DNA of 64,000 bases, from contig CANJUD010000009.1 of NCBI GenBank assembly GCA_947477885.1, positions 62,001 through 126,000 on the forward strand, given 5' to 3'. Positions 34,908 through 42,971 of this stretch are shown piece by piece. The first letter of the stretch is position 1. Every line of letters begins with the position of its first letter. Source of the DNA: Bacteroidota bacterium. GTDB taxonomy: Bacteria > Bacteroidota > Bacteroidia > UKL13-3. The notes under the pieces were generated by a model that saw only the letters and a program-made list of their open reading frames with translations, did no database searches and was not told the DNA's origin. A program made the position numbers and the translations under genes.

Positions 34908-35108
34908 CTATCTGTCCTTCTTATTAATACTATCGTGCTTAATAATACTATCCCGCCCAACTGATTTGAGAATTTCGTAGCGGTTGCTATCGGCTTTTAA
35001 AACTTCCGTATCTGAGAGGTGTTGAGGTTTCATATACATTGATAGGACGCCAAGCAGTATAAAAATTCCAATAATTAAAGCAAAATATTGCCATTTAAGT
35101 TTTTCCAT
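34908..35108 (-). CDS. Small single-pass membrane protein at the end of the VTC/HlyD/TolC cluster
   Basis: A 66-residue protein: short basic start (MEKLKW), one membrane helix (about 7-27, YFALIIGIFILLGVLSMYM) and a charged tail rich in Asp, Lys and Ser. It starts 2 bases after the TolC stop and is the last gene of the cluster. No family recognised. By context it may be an accessory subunit of the proposed envelope complex. Confidence 0.7.
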   Translation of the reverse strand: MEKLKWQYFALIIGIFILLGVLSMYMKPQHLSDTEVLKADSNRYEILKSVGRDSIIKHDSINKKDR

Positions 35109-35110
35109 TT

Positions 35111-36391
35111 TTATTCAAATTTTGTATGATAAGCATCCAATAATTTTGTATATAATATCATATCATAATGGTATTGCAATAAACTAGCTTCTGCTTTTTC
35201 AAGTCTCTCTTCGGCAGATTCAAGTTCGAAATAAGTGGTGTTTCCAAGGGCAAATGCTTTGCGTTCTAAATTAGTTTCCGACCTCAGATATTCTAATTGT
35301 TTGCTGATTATTAAGTATGCTTCATGAGTAAGTCTAAGTTGCTCTTTCAACTGATTTATTTTTGATCTAAGTTCAAAATCGAGCTGAGCTATTTTATAGC
35401 TATATCTTTTTTGCTCAATTTGCGATTGTGCTATTAATGACTGGGGTTGCATTTTATTGAACAAGGGGATATTTACATAAAACGCAACATACTTCGACAG
35501 GTTAGTATTGAACTGTGTGCTAAGCTCCATCTGCACCAAGCTTGAGCTGCGTGTAACCCAGCCAGCCATAATTCCCGCCGTAGGGTAGCGTGTCGACTTA
35601 TATAAATTAATTCTCTGGGTTTCGAGCGATGCCATACTTTGATAAGTATGATATATCGGAAAATTACTTACTAAAAAATTATCTTCTTGAACGACAGAAG
35701 GATCGATTTTTTCTGGAGCTTTTATATTGATAGAATCTGTAGTATAGCAAATACCTTGAATTTGTTTATAATATAAATTTTGCTGATTTTTCATTTTGGC
35801 AATGTTCAATTTATATAATTCAACATACGATTCTATATGCGGAAGCTCCTTGGCGGCCAATATGCCACCATTTATCATCTTCTTAATTTCCTTTTCCTTA
35901 TGTTGCCATTGTTCAGCTACTTTATTTGCCTGTAAAACTTGTGCATCTGTTTGCCAATATTTATAGTATAATATAATAATTTGGGTTTTTAATTCAAATA
36001 AATTCTGACGGTATTGTTGATGCGAAACTTGTTTCCCTATATCATACATTTGCCCAGTATAATAGTTTTTACCACCGTCAAAAAGTAACCAATCCGATTG
36101 TATATTAAATGAGTATACCTGGCTGCTGAAATTACTTAACACATTGGTTGCAGGGTCGATGAACAAACCCCAGTTATAGGTATTTCGCATGCCTGCCGAT
36201 AACTGGGGTAAATAATTATAGTTGTTATATTTGGATGCCTGTTCATATTTCATACTATCAATAGCAGCATCTTTAATACTCATATTGTTTTTGAATGCGA
36301 GCAATACCAAATCGTCCAAGCTACTTGCTTGCTGGGCTTTTGCTTGGGAAATAAACAGCAGTATATATATACATATAATACTACTCCTCAT
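35111..36391 (-). CDS. TolC-family outer-membrane efflux protein
   Basis: About 425 residues with a signal peptide (MRSSIICIYILLFISQAKAQ). I use the ATG at 36391; one at 36418 is also in frame but adds a stretch overlapping the DUF4956 gene. The protein has the TolC plan: a first repeat opening SLDDLVLLAFKNN, long coiled-coil helices, barrel strands (YSFNIQSDWLLFDGG) and a second repeat with YLRSETNLERKAFALGNT and FELESAEERLEKAEA. TolC trimers form the outer-membrane channel and periplasmic tunnel docked by HlyD-type adaptors, one of which is encoded in the same cluster. No RND, ABC or MFS pump gene is present. Confidence 0.9.
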   Translation of the reverse strand: MRSSIICIYILLFISQAKAQQASSLDDLVLLAFKNNMSIKDAAIDSMKYEQASKYNNYNYLPQLSAGMRNTYNWGLFIDPATNVLSNFSSQVYSFNIQSDWLLFDGGKNYYTGQMYDIGKQVSHQQYRQNLFELKTQIIILYYKYWQTDAQVLQANKVAEQWQHKEKEIKKMINGGILAAKELPHIESYVELYKLNIAKMKNQQNLYYKQIQGICYTTDSINIKAPEKIDPSVVQEDNFLVSNFPIYHTYQSMASLETQRINLYKSTRYPTAGIMAGWVTRSSSLVQMELSTQFNTNLSKYVAFYVNIPLFNKMQPQSLIAQSQIEQKRYSYKIAQLDFELRSKINQLKEQLRLTHEAYLIISKQLEYLRSETNLERKAFALGNTTYFELESAEERLEKAEASLLQYHYDMILYTKLLDAYHTKFE

Positions 36392-37055
36392 CAAAGAATA
36401 AATTAACGTGTTGTACATTATCCATCAATTTTAGTTCTTTTACCAATACTTGGCTGTTCTCTTCTTTCTTTAATTTAATATAATATGACAACTCCAAATA
36501 TTGATTATTTTCTTCACCCAATGCTTTTACATTAACCAAAGAATATTTTCTGCAAAATTTACCTATCACCAAGCTGGCATCGAAGCCATCATTGGTTTTA
36601 GCACTTACCACCATTTGCAATAAGAAATCACGCTTACGGGGTGCTGACATGTTTACTTTTACTATAATATAAAATACCACACCTACTATTATAGTTCCCA
36701 ATAATGCTACTTCATATATTCCCACGCCACTGGCAAGCCCGATTGCCAATGCAAAAAAGATAAACATAATATCCTGCGTATCCTTAACCGCCGTTCGGAA
36801 ACGGATGATGGACATGGCTCCTACCAATCCAAATGCAGTAGCTAAGTTATTCCCGATTACCATAATAACTACCGAAGTAATCATAGTGAGCATAATTAAC
36901 GAATTTACAAATGTGGTAGAATAACTTAGTCCTTTATAAGTTTGTCGGTATACAACCGAAATCATAATTCCGCAAACAAGTGCTACCAATAAATGGAGCA
37001 ATACCTCGCGGAAAGTTAATTGGTATAAATATATATCTTGTAATTGCTCATTCAT
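36381..37055 (-). CDS. DUF4956 membrane protein
   Basis: About 224 residues starting MNEQLQDIY (the ATG at 37067 gives four more). Four membrane helices are visible at about 20-40, 50-72, 95-115 and 118-140, with the conserved loop ATAFGLVGAMSIIRFRTAVKD between helices 2 and 3, the signature of DUF4956. A cytoplasmic domain of about 85 residues follows. The gene overlaps both neighbours (VTC upstream, TolC downstream). DUF4956 proteins are, to my knowledge, regularly encoded next to VTC-domain proteins, which suggests a membrane partner of the polymerase-like subunit. The mechanism is not known. Confidence 0.88.
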   Translation of the reverse strand: MNEQLQDIYLYQLTFREVLLHLLVALVCGIMISVVYRQTYKGLSYSTTFVNSLIMLTMITSVVIMVIGNNLATAFGLVGAMSIIRFRTAVKDTQDIMFIFFALAIGLASGVGIYEVALLGTIIVGVVFYIIVKVNMSAPRKRDFLLQMVVSAKTNDGFDASLVIGKFCRKYSLVNVKALGEENNQYLELSYYIKLKKEENSQVLVKELKLMDNVQHVNLFFDEE

Positions 37056-37863
37056 TGTAGGTAGCAAATGTTAAAGGTTTATATAGCCCTATGCGACTAT
37101 AACTAACGGGTGAAAAACGGTGAGAGGTATTAAGAAGATGGCTTTCAAGACCATCCGCATATTTGGAAATTGCTTTAAGGTTCAATTTAAATTCTTCTAT
37201 AATACTTAATGCCCAACGTGGTATCTCATCATGGTATTTTATTTCTAATACAAAATACTCGGGCGACAAATATTTTGCTCCTTGTTCTCCAAATATTTTA
37301 TTGAGTTGCGGATATATAGTAGTGCGTACATTTTTATCGAAAGTAATGCGTACACCTTTGTCGAACTTGCCCATATAGGCTTCACGTTCGTAGGTAACTA
37401 GGTTCAATGGCGACAATGAGTTCTTATAGAAATGATATAAAAACTTTTGTCCGTCGTACAAGTGCGTTTTATTATATAAATGTTTTTCTAAATTGCCCAA
37501 TTGCAATACTTCATTCAATGATGAATAAGGAATTTTTGCCCTGTGTTTCCCAATTCGCACGCCAACTTTTTTCTTAATTTCTAAAAAAGCAATACTATCT
37601 GATTGCTCAGTATCATATACGCGTATTCTAAATTTATTACGCAATTCTACCCCTTCCTTTTTCTCTTCATAATACTTCATAAAAGGAGTATCATAATATA
37701 CACTTCTCACGGTGTATTCACTAATTCCAAATTCATTCAACCCCGTAAATATGTCAGGCTCAACAAAAGGTTTAAGTCTGGCCCGAAGTTCCTCCAATCT
37801 ATTATTTGCCAAATAATATTTGCGTTCGTATCTATATTTTTCTATTTTGGTTGCCTCTATCAA
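37048..37863 (-). CDS. VTC-domain protein (polyphosphate polymerase-like)
   Basis: A 271-residue single-domain protein of the VTC/CYTH-like tunnel fold (PF09359). In yeast Vtc4 this fold makes polyphosphate from ATP. The tunnel motifs are all seen: YRYERKYYL (10-18), SVYYDTP (54-60), RNKFRIRVYD (75-84), EIKKKVGVRIGKHRAKI (95-111), YEREAY (158-163), VRITFDKNVRT (171-181), FVLEIKY (204-210) and SKYADGLES (233-241). This keeps the lysines and arginines that coordinate the phosphate chain and the metal-binding glutamates. There is no membrane segment. Its 3' end overlaps DUF4956, and HlyD is 12 bases upstream. Substrate by homology only; other triphosphate chemistry is possible. Confidence 0.88.
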   Translation of the reverse strand: MIEATKIEKYRYERKYYLANNRLEELRARLKPFVEPDIFTGLNEFGISEYTVRSVYYDTPFMKYYEEKKEGVELRNKFRIRVYDTEQSDSIAFLEIKKKVGVRIGKHRAKIPYSSLNEVLQLGNLEKHLYNKTHLYDGQKFLYHFYKNSLSPLNLVTYEREAYMGKFDKGVRITFDKNVRTTIYPQLNKIFGEQGAKYLSPEYFVLEIKYHDEIPRWALSIIEEFKLNLKAISKYADGLESHLLNTSHRFSPVSYSRIGLYKPLTFATYNE

Positions 37864-37875
37864 TGTATTATTATA

Positions 37876-38949
37876 TTACTTATAAAATATATCGCCCAAA
37901 ACTCTGTTCATATAATCCCACAAACTTATCTCATCGCAAATTATGGTTGATTTTGCAAAAATACCCGGCTGTGGATGTGTTGATTTTTTGATAATTCTAA
38001 AGGTAGCATATATAGCTTGTTTCCCTCCTACCAATTGTATTACATTGTCCATGCGGGTTACTTTGGCTTGCAGCGTTTCATCACTATTAAATAATTTAAG
38101 CATCACTACTGCTCCTGTTTTAAGATAATTTACTTCGCGTAAGGGAATGGGTGCGATTGCAATATATTCGGCAGTGTCTAGCAAATCCATTAATACTTCT
38201 ACCGCAGATACACCTCCTTTTTTTTGTTGAACCAACCCACCAAACGGTGCTTTAATAGCGAAGTTGTCCATCCGATGCTTCAACTCGTTAATTTGGTTTT
38301 CGATAGAATATATTTTTTGGCGGTTTAGCTCAAGCTCTTCTTGCTTATCACCGGTCATTAATTTTTGTAGTTGTGCTTCGGCTATTTGAATTCCGATTCG
38401 GGATAACTCCAATGCATCTTTGGAAACTTCTAATTGTTGGAAGGGCAATAAAGAATCGTGGTGAAGTTTAATATTACGTTCAACTACTTTTTTCTGTGTT
38501 ATATATTTTTCTTTGGCCAATCTCAAATTGGTTTTCGATTCTTCAATCACCTCTGGTTTTTGCCCTGTAGATATCACATTTAAAGAGGCTTTTTCAACCT
38601 CCAAAAGTCCTTGCAACCTTACCAAGTCGCTCTGTAATATTTTAGAGTACAAATGCCCTAGCACCTCCCCTTTTTGTATGTACTCTTTTTGCATTACCGA
38701 GGGTTCCATATAAAAGTCGAAAACCTCGCCTGACAAGAATTCGCGGCCTGAATAATTTGTGATAATGTCCAGTTCGTTGTTTTTGGTAGCTGTAGCTATT
38801 CGCCCATCAATATTTCGGCTCACCATCCACTCGTTTACTGGAAAAACTTTGCCCGTAGCATATATTTTATAAGTGATTTTTATCGGCAGAAGAAACAAGC
38901 CGCAAACTGCTGCGATGAGTATGATATAAATTATATATTTTTTGCTCAT
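37876..38949 (-). CDS. HlyD-family periplasmic adaptor (membrane fusion protein)
   Basis: A 357-residue protein with an uncleaved N-terminal membrane helix (about 4-24), a split lipoyl domain (IQKGEVLGHLYSKILQSDL ... DNFAIKAPFGGLVQQ), a long coiled-coil hairpin between them (about 115-235), and C-terminal beta-barrel and membrane-proximal parts. Such adaptors bridge an inner-membrane complex to TolC. It starts 2 bases after the propeller lipoprotein gene and is followed by VTC after 12 bases. No transporter of a usual partner class is encoded nearby, so its inner-membrane partner is open; DUF4956 is the obvious candidate in the cluster. Confidence 0.9.
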   Translation of the reverse strand: MSKKYIIYIILIAAVCGLFLLPIKITYKIYATGKVFPVNEWMVSRNIDGRIATATKNNELDIITNYSGREFLSGEVFDFYMEPSVMQKEYIQKGEVLGHLYSKILQSDLVRLQGLLEVEKASLNVISTGQKPEVIEESKTNLRLAKEKYITQKKVVERNIKLHHDSLLPFQQLEVSKDALELSRIGIQIAEAQLQKLMTGDKQEELELNRQKIYSIENQINELKHRMDNFAIKAPFGGLVQQKKGGVSAVEVLMDLLDTAEYIAIAPIPLREVNYLKTGAVVMLKLFNSDETLQAKVTRMDNVIQLVGGKQAIYATFRIIKKSTHPQPGIFAKSTIICDEISLWDYMNRVLGDIFYK

Positions 38950-38951
38950 TA

Positions 38952-39932
38952 TTATTTTATTGCCGATATGTTTAAACCATATAATGACGGCGGGATATTT
39001 TTATATTGTTCGTTAGAAACCAATATTGAATCATTGTTCACAAAGGTAACGCCTTCTATTTGACCTACTGTTATTCTGGGCCCTAAATCTACCATTATTT
39101 TTTTATTATCCAATAAGGATGGTAGTTTCAAATCGCGTATTACCCATAAAAACGCTTTATCGCTCGCAGGATTAAATCCAGTAAGTACCAATGATTTTTT
39201 GTCAGGCGACACATCTGCACCAGTAATAAGCCCTTTAGTATCGAAACTGCCTACCAAAACAGCTTTGTATGTGCCTGGCTGTGCAGGTATCTGGTATAAA
39301 TTGGTATGCTGGTCACCATGGCGTTTGGTAAAAATGTATAGATAATTATCAATATAAACTAATGCCTCCGCATCATAATTATTGAGCACATTTTTACGAA
39401 AATCTGTTTGATCGGGATAACTATAATATATCTGTTCTGGGTTTGCTTTGTTACTTTTACCACTACCTTTTATATTTAAAATAGAAGTATCAATTTTATG
39501 TATGATATATATAGTAAGATCTGTACGGTCTCCATTATTGTTCCCAATATCTCCTATATATATACTGCTGTCGCTTGTGCTTATGTCTTCCCAATCAGTA
39601 TTAAAGCCACCATTTACAGTAATGGCTTCATTAGCATTTCCTTTAGCTGTGTCAATGCTAGAAATTAGAGCACCACCACCACCATCATCAAAGGTCCACA
39701 CATTGCCTTGAATCCAAGCCAAACCAGAACTTTCATTGAAAATAGAATTGAGTAGTACAATCAGTTTTAAATTTGCGATGGTGTTTGCATATTCACACGA
39801 ACTGTCGTCTATCTTTGCCTTCTCTTTATAATTGATTGCATTTGGGTCGGTACAGCCTTTTTTGGAACTACACGACACAGTGCTTAACCCAACAAATAAA
39901 GATAAAATATATATAACCTTGCGGCTTTTCAT
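38952..39932 (-). CDS. Propeller-like lipoprotein opening the VTC/HlyD/TolC cluster
   Basis: About 326 residues. MKSRKVIYILSLFVGLSTVSC is a lipoprotein signal peptide with its cysteine in LSTVSC. Next comes one CTDPNAINYKEKAKIDDSSC element, the small disulphide motif often found in Bacteroidota secreted proteins. The rest looks like a beta-propeller: GLAWIQGNVWTFDDGGGG, WEDIS, IYIGDIGNNNGDRTDL, DAEALVYIDNYLYIFTKR, ITGADVSPDKKSLVLTGF, GQIEGVTFVNNDSILVSNEQ. This is reminiscent of the phytase-like esterase propellers, but I cannot confirm the family. Two in-frame ATGs (39938, 39932); the second gives the better signal peptide. First gene of the cluster. Confidence 0.75.
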   Translation of the reverse strand: MKSRKVIYILSLFVGLSTVSCSSKKGCTDPNAINYKEKAKIDDSSCEYANTIANLKLIVLLNSIFNESSGLAWIQGNVWTFDDGGGGALISSIDTAKGNANEAITVNGGFNTDWEDISTSDSSIYIGDIGNNNGDRTDLTIYIIHKIDTSILNIKGSGKSNKANPEQIYYSYPDQTDFRKNVLNNYDAEALVYIDNYLYIFTKRHGDQHTNLYQIPAQPGTYKAVLVGSFDTKGLITGADVSPDKKSLVLTGFNPASDKAFLWVIRDLKLPSLLDNKKIMVDLGPRITVGQIEGVTFVNNDSILVSNEQYKNIPPSLYGLNISAIK

Positions 39933-39961: not shown

Positions 39962-40492
39962 ATGTACAATAAAAAATCAAAAATCTTGAAACCAATATAT
40001 TTAACTCTTATTATCAGCATTTTATGCTCGGGTAAAATTTCAGCATTTGCAAAAAGGGACACTTTAAACATTTTTTTGCACCATCCACTCCAATTAAATT
40101 ATGTCGGACTGAATGTGGGCATTTCAAAAAAAGTGATGAAAAATGTGGAAGTAGCTGTTGGTATTTATTCCTTTTTTTATTATCGTTCAGATTATCGCCA
40201 ATACTCCAATACAACTGGTCTGAATATCTGGGCTAGATACTATTATAATAATTTTTTTGTTGGTGCTGGGCTATATAATGGCCGTTCACCCTATTTGAGG
40301 GAGCTCGACAACCAAAAGATATATATCATGCAATATGATATTATAGCCAATGCAGGTTACCGCCAGCAATTATCAAAAAAGTACTATTTAGATTTATGGG
40401 CAGGATATAATCTAATCCAGAAACCCTACTCATTCAACCCTGTTGCTTTTTCATTATGGGCAGGAGTGGGAAAGCGTATTGGCAGAAATTAA
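39962..40492 (+). CDS. Secreted protein of unknown function, outer-membrane-barrel-like
   Basis: A 176-residue protein with a signal peptide (about 1-30, ending KISAFAKRD). The remainder alternates aromatic and polar residues in about eight strands (GLNIWARYYYNNFFVGAGLY, YDIIANAGYRQQLSKKYYLD) and would fit a small outer-membrane barrel; the last residue is N rather than the usual F/Y. No family recognised. It is divergent from the VTC/HlyD/TolC cluster with only 23-29 bases between the starts, so their promoters must overlap the genes or each other. rnhB follows 21 bases downstream. Confidence 0.65.
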   Translation: MYNKKSKILKPIYLTLIISILCSGKISAFAKRDTLNIFLHHPLQLNYVGLNVGISKKVMKNVEVAVGIYSFFYYRSDYRQYSNTTGLNIWARYYYNNFFVGAGLYNGRSPYLRELDNQKIYIMQYDIIANAGYRQQLSKKYYLDLWAGYNLIQKPYSFNPVAFSLWAGVGKRIGRN

Positions 40493-41166: not shown

Positions 41167-41979
41167 ATGCCTGTAATAAAACTAACGCCTGCTATAAAAA
41201 TATTGCTACTGATAAACGTAGCAATTTTCGCATTAAAATTTGCTTTACCCTCCTTGATTCCTGGTATTGATTTGGACCGTGTATTGGGATTGCACAATCC
41301 AAGTAGCGAGCTTTTCCGCTTATGGCAGCCCATCACACATATATTCATGCATGCTGATTTTATGCATATATTTTTAAATATGCTAGGCTTGGTGATGTTT
41401 GGTGTGGCCTTAGAAGAACGCTGGGGATATCGGAAATTTTTGATTTATTTTATGACATCTGCTTTGGGTGGGGCTGTGTTGTTTTTGATTATCAATAATT
41501 ATGAGTTGGGGCAATTACAAAAACTAGTCAATGCGTACATAGCCCAACCCGATATAGATAACTTGAATCACTTAGTAAAAAAGATACCTGAATTTGGTAT
41601 TAGAATAAATATGGATGAGGCAAGCAAATTATGGAAATATTCCCCTGAATTGTTCACTGTGGAAACTGTTAAGATTGTGAACGAGTATTATACAACTATA
41701 TTAAATGTGCCATGCATTGGAGCATCAGGCGGGGTTTATGGCGTATTACTTGCTTTTGGTTTATTATTCCCAAATGTCACTATTCTATTCGGTTTCTTCT
41801 TCCCTATTCCCGCCCGCATTGCTGTTATTATACTTGCTGGAATATCAATATATAATGGCTTTAAAAATGACCCTACTGACCATGTTGCCCACTTTGCCCA
41901 CCTAGGTGGTATGCTGTTTGGTTATATCCTACTAAAAATATGGAAGGAGAATCTTTTTGACAAGTTCAGAATAAAATGA
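41167..41979 (+). CDS. Rhomboid family intramembrane serine protease
   Basis: A 270-residue protease that cleaves membrane-embedded substrates. The catalytic serine is S177 in GASGGVYG and the histidine is H235 in AHFAHLGGMLFG. ITHIFMHADFMHIFLNMLGLVMFG in loop 1 and helix 2 is the conserved HxxxHxxxN region. Six membrane helices fit the hydrophobic segments. An unusual insert of about 60 charged residues (about 112-168) separates helices 3 and 4. A second rhomboid gene follows after 110 bases. Confidence 0.93.
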   Translation: MPVIKLTPAIKILLLINVAIFALKFALPSLIPGIDLDRVLGLHNPSSELFRLWQPITHIFMHADFMHIFLNMLGLVMFGVALEERWGYRKFLIYFMTSALGGAVLFLIINNYELGQLQKLVNAYIAQPDIDNLNHLVKKIPEFGIRINMDEASKLWKYSPELFTVETVKIVNEYYTTILNVPCIGASGGVYGVLLAFGLLFPNVTILFGFFFPIPARIAVIILAGISIYNGFKNDPTDHVAHFAHLGGMLFGYILLKIWKENLFDKFRIK

Positions 41980-42089
41980 TTGTATTTTAAAAAATGATTG
42001 TTTATATTTGTAACAAAAAAATAAAAAACTACGCTTGTACTATATCCGTTCATTATAAAATATTGAACTAATACAAGAAAAGAGAGACT

Positions 42090-42971
42090 ATGAGTACTTT
42101 TAAAACCAAACTAATCCAAAACAATAATATGCTGAATAGGCTGATTGCCATTTCCGTATTGGCTTTTTTGTTGGTGGAAATGGTGAATGTACTTACTTTT
42201 TTATCAGGAAGTGATGGCAGGGAGGTCGTAGAAGCTATAAAAGTGCAAACATCTATCCCATCTGGATTTTGGGATGCTTTAGCCAAACCGTGGACGCTTA
42301 TAACCTACCAGTTTATGCATAACGGGTTTTGGCACCTGCTATGGAATATGTTATTTCTGTTTTATTTAGGTAAAATTTTTAAAGAATATTTGGGCGAACG
42401 CAGATTATTATATGCCTATTTGGGTGGCGGGATTGCAGGCGGTGTTTTATATTTATTGTGCTATAACTTATTACCTGCATTTGCTGGAAGTAATAGCATT
42501 TTAATTGGTGCCTCTGCATCGGTATTAGGAATAGTATGTGGAGCTGCAACCTTATTACCCAACTACGAAATATTTTTATATGGTGTGTTTCGGGTGCCGT
42601 TAAAATATATAGCTTTGTTTTATTTGCTAACTAGTTTTTTTAGTATTACAGGCAGCAACCCTGGAGGAAATATAGCCCATTTGGGCGGCGGTATTTTTGG
42701 CTTCTTATATATCAAATCATTATATGCACACTTTGCCTGGTGCCAAAATATTAAATTTAAAATGGCTCAGTGGCTTAAACCAAAACCATCAAAACCAAAA
42801 GGGCCTAAACCTGTGCAGAGAAGCAGTACCTATATCAACCCAAACATGCAACACCGCCCTTCGCAGGAAGAAATTGATTTGATATTAGATAAAATAAACG
42901 CATCGGGCTACGAAAGCCTCAATACTTACGAAAAAGATTTACTTTTTAAAGCCAGTCACGAAGATGATTGA
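42090..42971 (+). CDS. Second rhomboid-family protein with charged C-terminal tail
   Basis: A 293-residue rhomboid. QFMHNGFWHLLWNMLFLFYLG is the conserved helix-2 region, S142 lies in GASASVLG (GASA instead of the usual GASG, still within the GxSx pattern), and H197 lies in NIAHLGGGIFG. After the last helix comes a cytoplasmic tail of about 75 residues with a KPKPSKPKGPKP linker and a short helical end (SQEEIDLILDKINASGYESL). It is followed after 13 bases by the EEP-family gene. Tandem rhomboids of this kind occur in related genomes; whether this copy is active cannot be told from sequence. Confidence 0.9.
   Translation: MSTFKTKLIQNNNMLNRLIAISVLAFLLVEMVNVLTFLSGSDGREVVEAIKVQTSIPSGFWDALAKPWTLITYQFMHNGFWHLLWNMLFLFYLGKIFKEYLGERRLLYAYLGGGIAGGVLYLLCYNLLPAFAGSNSILIGASASVLGIVCGAATLLPNYEIFLYGVFRVPLKYIALFYLLTSFFSITGSNPGGNIAHLGGGIFGFLYIKSLYAHFAWCQNIKFKMAQWLKPKPSKPKGPKPVQRSSTYINPNMQHRPSQEEIDLILDKINASGYESLNTYEKDLLFKASHEDD

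Follow-up and report, generated by a model that had tools for sequence, protein, structure and literature searches.

The gene cluster analysed here lies on the minus strand of a 64,000-nucleotide stretch of Bacteroidota bacterium DNA (contig CANJUD010000009.1, positions 62,001 to 126,000; hereafter, the window) and encodes a beta-propeller lipoprotein, an HlyD-type periplasmic adaptor, a VTC polyphosphate-polymerase-like enzyme, the membrane protein DUF4956, a TolC-family outer-membrane channel and a small membrane protein. The conserved core of the cluster is HlyD-VTC-DUF4956; TolC and the lipoprotein lie outside the widely conserved part. Given the recurrence of the gene order in relatives, the grouping is more than chance, and we are confident that it is a real functional unit. 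It is a variant of the known association of CotH, VTC and DUF4956 genes, not a proven new transporter class. That VTC, DUF4956, HlyD and TolC together make a pump-less, envelope-spanning exporter serving surface CotH proteins is, in our estimate, an evenly balanced proposition.

A three-gene core without a pump

A sequence-only reading of the window had reported six minus-strand genes with small gaps or overlaps, and the open reading frames (ORFs) agree with this, in the order reported and with spacings of 2, -38, -20, 12 and 2 bases (Table 1). Using a DUF4956 alignment to scan genomes, one for each species, we found 298 relatives and analysed the best 80. These 80 loci were picked by similarity to the window DUF4956 and thus show conservation within the clade rather than the share of all VTC loci. 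HlyD, VTC and DUF4956 were found together in this order in 75/80, mostly with gaps or overlaps of a few bases and with the HlyD homologue immediately upstream of VTC-DUF4956. These 75 loci span Bacteroidota, Caldithrix, Zixibacteria, KSB1, Kryptonia and Melioribacteraceae. A relative of the same genus (L081, genome G002) has all six genes, and five recur in two loci of the same family (L082 and L084), where the gene for the 66-amino-acid protein is absent; the locus L083 is interrupted at a contig end. Near the core, TolC was present in 10 of the 75 HlyD-type loci, many loci being on short contigs, and the propeller lipoprotein likewise in 10/75. The sequence-only reading had named conservation of the six-gene order as a check: conservation holds for HlyD-VTC-DUF4956 and not for the full set, the 66-amino-acid gene being confined to the genus and TolC and the lipoprotein to about ten loci each. 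TolC was also considered as a fixed partner and was dropped on the same count.

There is no RND, ABC or MFS gene in or beside the window cluster, as the sequence-only reading had stated, and none was seen in the operons of the relatives (RND and MFS were judged from the directon listing alone). An ABC-type ATPase, identified by motif scan, lies within 8 genes of the core in 3/80 loci, always outside the operon; the core is thus neither broken up in relatives nor always accompanied by a conventional pump. The adaptor and the TolC-family channel of a tripartite system are both present by their Pfam matches (PF13437 and PF02321). The adaptor, with a single transmembrane (TM) segment at its N-terminus, scores well under all NCBIfam cut-offs.

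The VTC enzyme

The window VTC matches PF09359 across the whole domain (residues 11-241) with 140 bits against a cut-off of 23. VTC is the sole Pfam match of this 271-amino-acid protein, which has no TM segment; both the SPX domain and the VTC1-type TM domain are absent. A search of the PDB with a VTC family profile matched yeast Vtc4 at 4e-12; the profile was required, as the Vtc4 match was non-significant when the single sequence was used. In the alignment, K200, R264, R266, K281 and K294 of Vtc4 correspond to K15, R79, R81, K97 and K106 of the window VTC, and R361, R373, E426, S457 and K458 correspond to R160, R172, E207, S233 and K234. These ten tunnel or catalytic positions are invariant in 84/84 VTCs of the HlyD type (type A below), and 15 Vtc4-equivalent positions are kept in the same 84 with a single exception, an R-to-K change at R296. 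Changing R264, R266 or E426 inactivates yeast VTC (PMC9911596). Judged by these residues, the Vtc4-equivalent catalytic site of the HlyD-type VTCs appears intact, and the enzyme so escapes the refutation set by the sequence-only reading, a VTC protein that binds no nucleotide or phosphate chain.

DUF4956 resembles MgtC

DUF4956 has four TM-like segments. Its matches to MgtC are weak and under cut-off (Pfam, 17.9 vs 31.4 bits; NCBIfam MgtC/SapB, 3e-7, 30 vs 214 bits). An AlphaFold2 (AF2) model consists of helices and a C-terminal ACT-like domain, with a predicted local distance difference test score (pLDDT) of 70 and a predicted template-modelling score (pTM) of 0.48. Foldseek matches to the model include the C-terminal domains of MgtC (2lqj, 1.6e-3; 7qa5, 4e-3), such that the TM bundle and ACT-like C-terminal domain of MgtC/SapB are both present in this medium-confidence model. 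A single-sequence search of the PDB with DUF4956 gave no match. Among 62 homologues, a basic residue stands at R41, R89, R91 and K95 in 98-100%, and at K45 and position 77 in 87-92%; the conserved basic residues sit in or next to the helices. There is also an invariant GLVGAMSIIRFRT-type motif. Yeast VTC couples synthesis to translocation via a channel lined with basic residues (PMC9911596). By analogy, the basic residues of DUF4956 would suit a polyanion path resembling that channel, although the likeness is only suggestive.

Four architectures and the DUF4956 tree

In a class-wide sample of 295 genomes from the class of the window, in which DUF4956 is found in 160 and VTC in 143, we read 89 loci, window included. 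Four architectures were distinguished. In A (6 loci), the order is HlyD-VTC-DUF4956. In B (53 loci), VTC-DUF4956 is joined by an outer-membrane-type barrel (DUF2490), and two small secreted proteins often come first. In C, part of a set of 23 loci with neither HlyD nor barrel, DUF4956-VTC is followed by membrane-anchored CotH genes, and the surroundings look like exopolysaccharide regions. In D (five loci: L085-L088 and L091), DUF4956-HlyD-TolC occurs without VTC; VTC is absent genome-wide in the four genomes of L085-L088, and in that of L091 (G035) it is present but elsewhere. HlyD and the barrel were mutually exclusive in the loci read. The barrel version, which was absent from the sequence-only reading, replaces HlyD and is the commoner of the two. 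Examples of B include L062, L067, L070 and L077, often with a CotH gene carrying a tail for the type IX secretion system (T9SS). In B. thetaiotaomicron, the DUF4956-DUF2490 pair BT3498-99 responds to iron (PMC10434189).

The barrel-linked forms lie to one side of a branch that has full support (100/100) in a DUF4956 tree. The A and D forms group together with moderate support (93/85), and D alone is a clade (100/100). Because A and D group in the tree and D lacks VTC, the association between DUF4956 and HlyD is independent of VTC. The existence of DUF4956-HlyD-TolC without VTC also makes DUF4956, rather than VTC, the probable inner-membrane partner of the adaptor. The placing of DUF4956 in the inner membrane by the sequence-only reading is strengthened by these loci; by the same loci, its further claim that VTC feeds the conduit as an obligatory step is contradicted. 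The D form could draw polyphosphate from PPK1, which was found in 13/13 genomes tested, or could move other cargo. On the PPK1 result, we dropped the idea that a polyphosphate supply is missing where VTC is absent.

CotH and type IX secretion

The conserved genes co-occur with CotH and T9SS, a link to putative surface kinases that the sequence-only reading did not contain. All CotH counts in this section take no account of phylogeny. In the class-wide sample, CotH was found in 138/143 VTC+ genomes vs 31/152 VTC- genomes; among the latter, it was found in 13/19 with DUF4956 vs 18/133 without (p about 1e-6). Within the family of the window, CotH is in 12/12 DUF4956+ genomes (VTC-less ones included) vs 2/23 DUF4956- genomes. 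CotH adjoins the core in 24/75 HlyD-type scan loci, in several directly downstream, and a T9SS-tailed CotH gene adjoins the operon of L085, a D form in a VTC-less genome. Where CotH adjoins HlyD or barrel loci, 48 proteins are T9SS-tailed and 1 was scored as TM-anchored; where it adjoins loci without either, 2 are T9SS-tailed and 14 TM-anchored, the anchored ones coming mostly from a single DUF4956 clade.

The window genome has seven CotH ORFs, of 540, 1731, 613, 2427, 1959, 2148 and 1797 codons, with a T9SS tail in 7/7. In its 3.1 Mb, this genome (G000) encodes a very large exported protein set, with no fewer than 150 C-terminal sorting tails of the T9SS. In vitro, CotH of B. subtilis acts as an ATP-using Ser/Thr kinase (PMC7821199). 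A regular expression for the CotH catalytic motif matched 29/92; the pattern was too crude to be used, and we therefore make no claim for CotH activity.

A proposed exporter and its alternatives

In the exporter that we propose, VTC would polymerise nucleotide-derived phosphate in the cytosol, and DUF4956 would take up the nascent polyanion and pass it over the inner membrane. HlyD would dock onto DUF4956 and connect to the TolC channel, bringing the product to the cell surface, where it might donate phosphate to T9SS-exported CotH proteins or be their ligand or substrate; an accessory role would fall to the propeller lipoprotein. The barrel of B would replace the HlyD of A and D for onward passage to the outside, and CotH would act at the product's point of arrival, which is the surface for A and B and the inner membrane for C. 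We infer the physical complex, the channel function of DUF4956, the polyphosphate cargo and its use by CotH from the gene arrangements and likenesses above. Of these, a phosphate chain as the cargo seems to us to have an even chance, whilst use of the cargo by CotH is doubtful. A more specific version is an ATP-fuelled line in which VTC polyphosphate, passed through DUF4956-HlyD-TolC, is the donor for extracellular phosphorylation by T9SS-exported CotH kinases. Outside the cell, these kinases would have no obvious ATP; we hold this version unlikely.

Several points weigh against the exporter. TolC is near the core in so few loci that the outer-membrane exit must often be encoded elsewhere or be different. 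As a VTC-less form exists, the conduit can do without VTC. The DUF4956 model is of medium confidence, its TM part is without a match among the PDB matches listed, and the channel role is putative. There is no cotH beside the window operon, all seven genes being elsewhere in the genome. The phylogenetic limits on the CotH counts and on the TM-anchored set given above also count here.

The same conduit may instead carry something other than long polyphosphate, i.e. nucleotide, pyrophosphate, short oligophosphate or another anionic polymer, with VTC as an optional modifier or supplier. VTC-less genomes with DUF4956-HlyD-TolC still have CotH, and DUF4956 accompanies CotH even without VTC, both points in its favour. 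However, VTC is in the tight core of nearly all HlyD-type scan loci with its catalytic residues unchanged, and PPK1 could provide polyphosphate in the VTC-less genomes; we give this alternative only a small chance.

Less probable again is that DUF4956, like MgtC, regulates the homeostasis of phosphate, Mg or ATP and is no channel, that VTC polyphosphate stays inside the cell, and that HlyD-TolC is a co-operonic stress response. The resemblance of DUF4956 to MgtC/SapB in sequence and C-terminal fold is consistent with such a role, as is the effect of MgtC on phosphate metabolism and ATP synthase cited in a passage of PMC12345266. Yet it does not account for the conserved HlyD neighbour, the VTC-less DUF4956-HlyD-TolC form, or the sister group, where an outer-membrane barrel stands in place of HlyD.

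Finally, orphan adaptors exist and TolC is often non-adjacent, so HlyD and TolC might serve an ordinary pump encoded elsewhere and share only regulation with VTC-DUF4956, but this is very improbable given a pump-less HlyD-VTC-DUF4956 operon in 75/80 loci and several phyla, and given that HlyD stays with DUF4956 where VTC is absent.

Were the exporter confirmed, it would provide a new inner-membrane partner for an HlyD-TolC conduit and a route by which bacteria bring phosphate chains to the surface using a yeast-type polymerase, and it would bear on the phosphate source of extracellular CotH-type kinases. For DUF4956, it supplies a concrete hypothesis, and the gene families concerned are present in about half of the 295 class genomes. 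With a fixed three-gene core and a VTC-less sister form, the idea is directly testable through gene removal.

The locus and its surroundings

Table 1. Genes of the cluster and the divergent neighbouring gene, in window coordinates
Feature	Position	Strand	Remarks
66-amino-acid single-TM protein	34908..35108	-	Genus-specific; no Pfam or NCBIfam family match
TolC-family outer-membrane channel, 435 amino acids	35111..36418	-	Accessory; Pfam OEP PF02321, 4e-20
DUF4956, 228 amino acids, MgtC-like membrane protein with C-terminal ACT-like domain	36381..37067	-	Core gene 3; PF16316, 2e-15
VTC, polyphosphate-polymerase-like tunnel enzyme, 271 amino acids, soluble	37048..37863	-	Core gene 2; PF09359, 1e-40
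HlyD-type periplasmic adaptor, 357 amino acids, N-terminal TM	37876..38949	-	Core gene 1; HlyD_3 PF13437, 1e-7
Beta-propeller lipoprotein, 328 amino acids	38952..39938	-	Accessory; AF2 model; no Pfam match
Secreted 176-amino-acid protein, possible extra part	39962..40492	+	Divergent, directly upstream of the lipoprotein gene

The cluster is flanked by a polyprenyl synthetase gene and by the gene for the 176-amino-acid protein, which had no match in a Pfam scan and belongs to no known family. A gene for 172-184 amino acids occupies the same divergent site in eight relatives (L081-L084, L101, L102, L103 and L107). The lipoprotein ORF starts with TTG, and an ATG is found at 39932. Its AF2 model is a beta-propeller (pLDDT 87) with the BT1954 surface lipoprotein as best PDB match and Bacteroides surface lipoproteins among the best matches; Cys23 is invariant in 10 homologues. 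The N-terminus, GCTDPNAINYKEKAKIDDSSCEY, has a short Cys-containing motif, GCTD...DDxSCxY, ahead of the propeller, and the motif is also present in a distant homologue (L099, 9841-11160).

Scanning the window for Rfam families and tRNAs gave no matches, and promoter and terminator scans gave no clear excess over shuffles. Two neighbouring genes for rhomboid-like membrane proteins, called by eye, are on the plus strand at 41167-42971.

Comparison with known systems

The nearest described relative is a trio of cotH, polyphosphate polymerase and DUF4956 genes, which in Gram-positive bacteria accompany Pel clusters as accessory genes (PMC7112168). Pel and aggregation are reduced in S. intermedius (SIR_1592-1594) when either DUF4956 or cotH is lost, and synteny of the trio was not found beyond the Pel locus (PMC12345266). 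In our loci, CotH is beside VTC-DUF4956 many times in Bacteroidota and related phyla. Pel genes were neither seen in the window region examined nor noticed at CotH-VTC-DUF4956 loci, no Pel search having been made. A search of open-licence papers found HlyD and polyphosphate polymerase named together nowhere, so an unseen description is possible; DUF4956 itself appears in very few such papers. The trio shares with the window set a VTC-like polymerase adjoining a DUF4956/MgtC-ACT protein and the link to CotH. HlyD, TolC and the lipoprotein go unmentioned in the descriptions found of the trio, which tie it to Pel, whereas the window-type set is linked to HlyD, TolC and T9SS-exported CotH in Gram-negative hosts.

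With the eukaryotic VTC complex (Vtc1/3/4; PDB 8i6v, 7ytj, 3g3q), the set shares the tunnel enzyme and its catalytic residues. Polymer synthesis in that complex is coupled to passage via the membrane part, as we propose here; in contrast, no SPX domain is seen here, a separate MgtC-like protein forms the membrane part, and periplasmic and outer-membrane parts are added. The likeness to the MgtC/SapB family lies in the N-terminal TM bundle, the C-terminal ACT-like domain and a weak sequence match, and the differences in a score under the Pfam cut-off, the GLVGAMSIIRFRT-type motif and the coupling to VTC and HlyD. Tripartite HlyD-TolC systems (EmrA, HlyD and CzcB types) likewise combine an HlyD adaptor, bearing a TM segment at its N-terminus, with a TolC-family channel, but the set described here has no ABC, MFS or RND pump, and DUF4956 is proposed to take the inner-membrane place.

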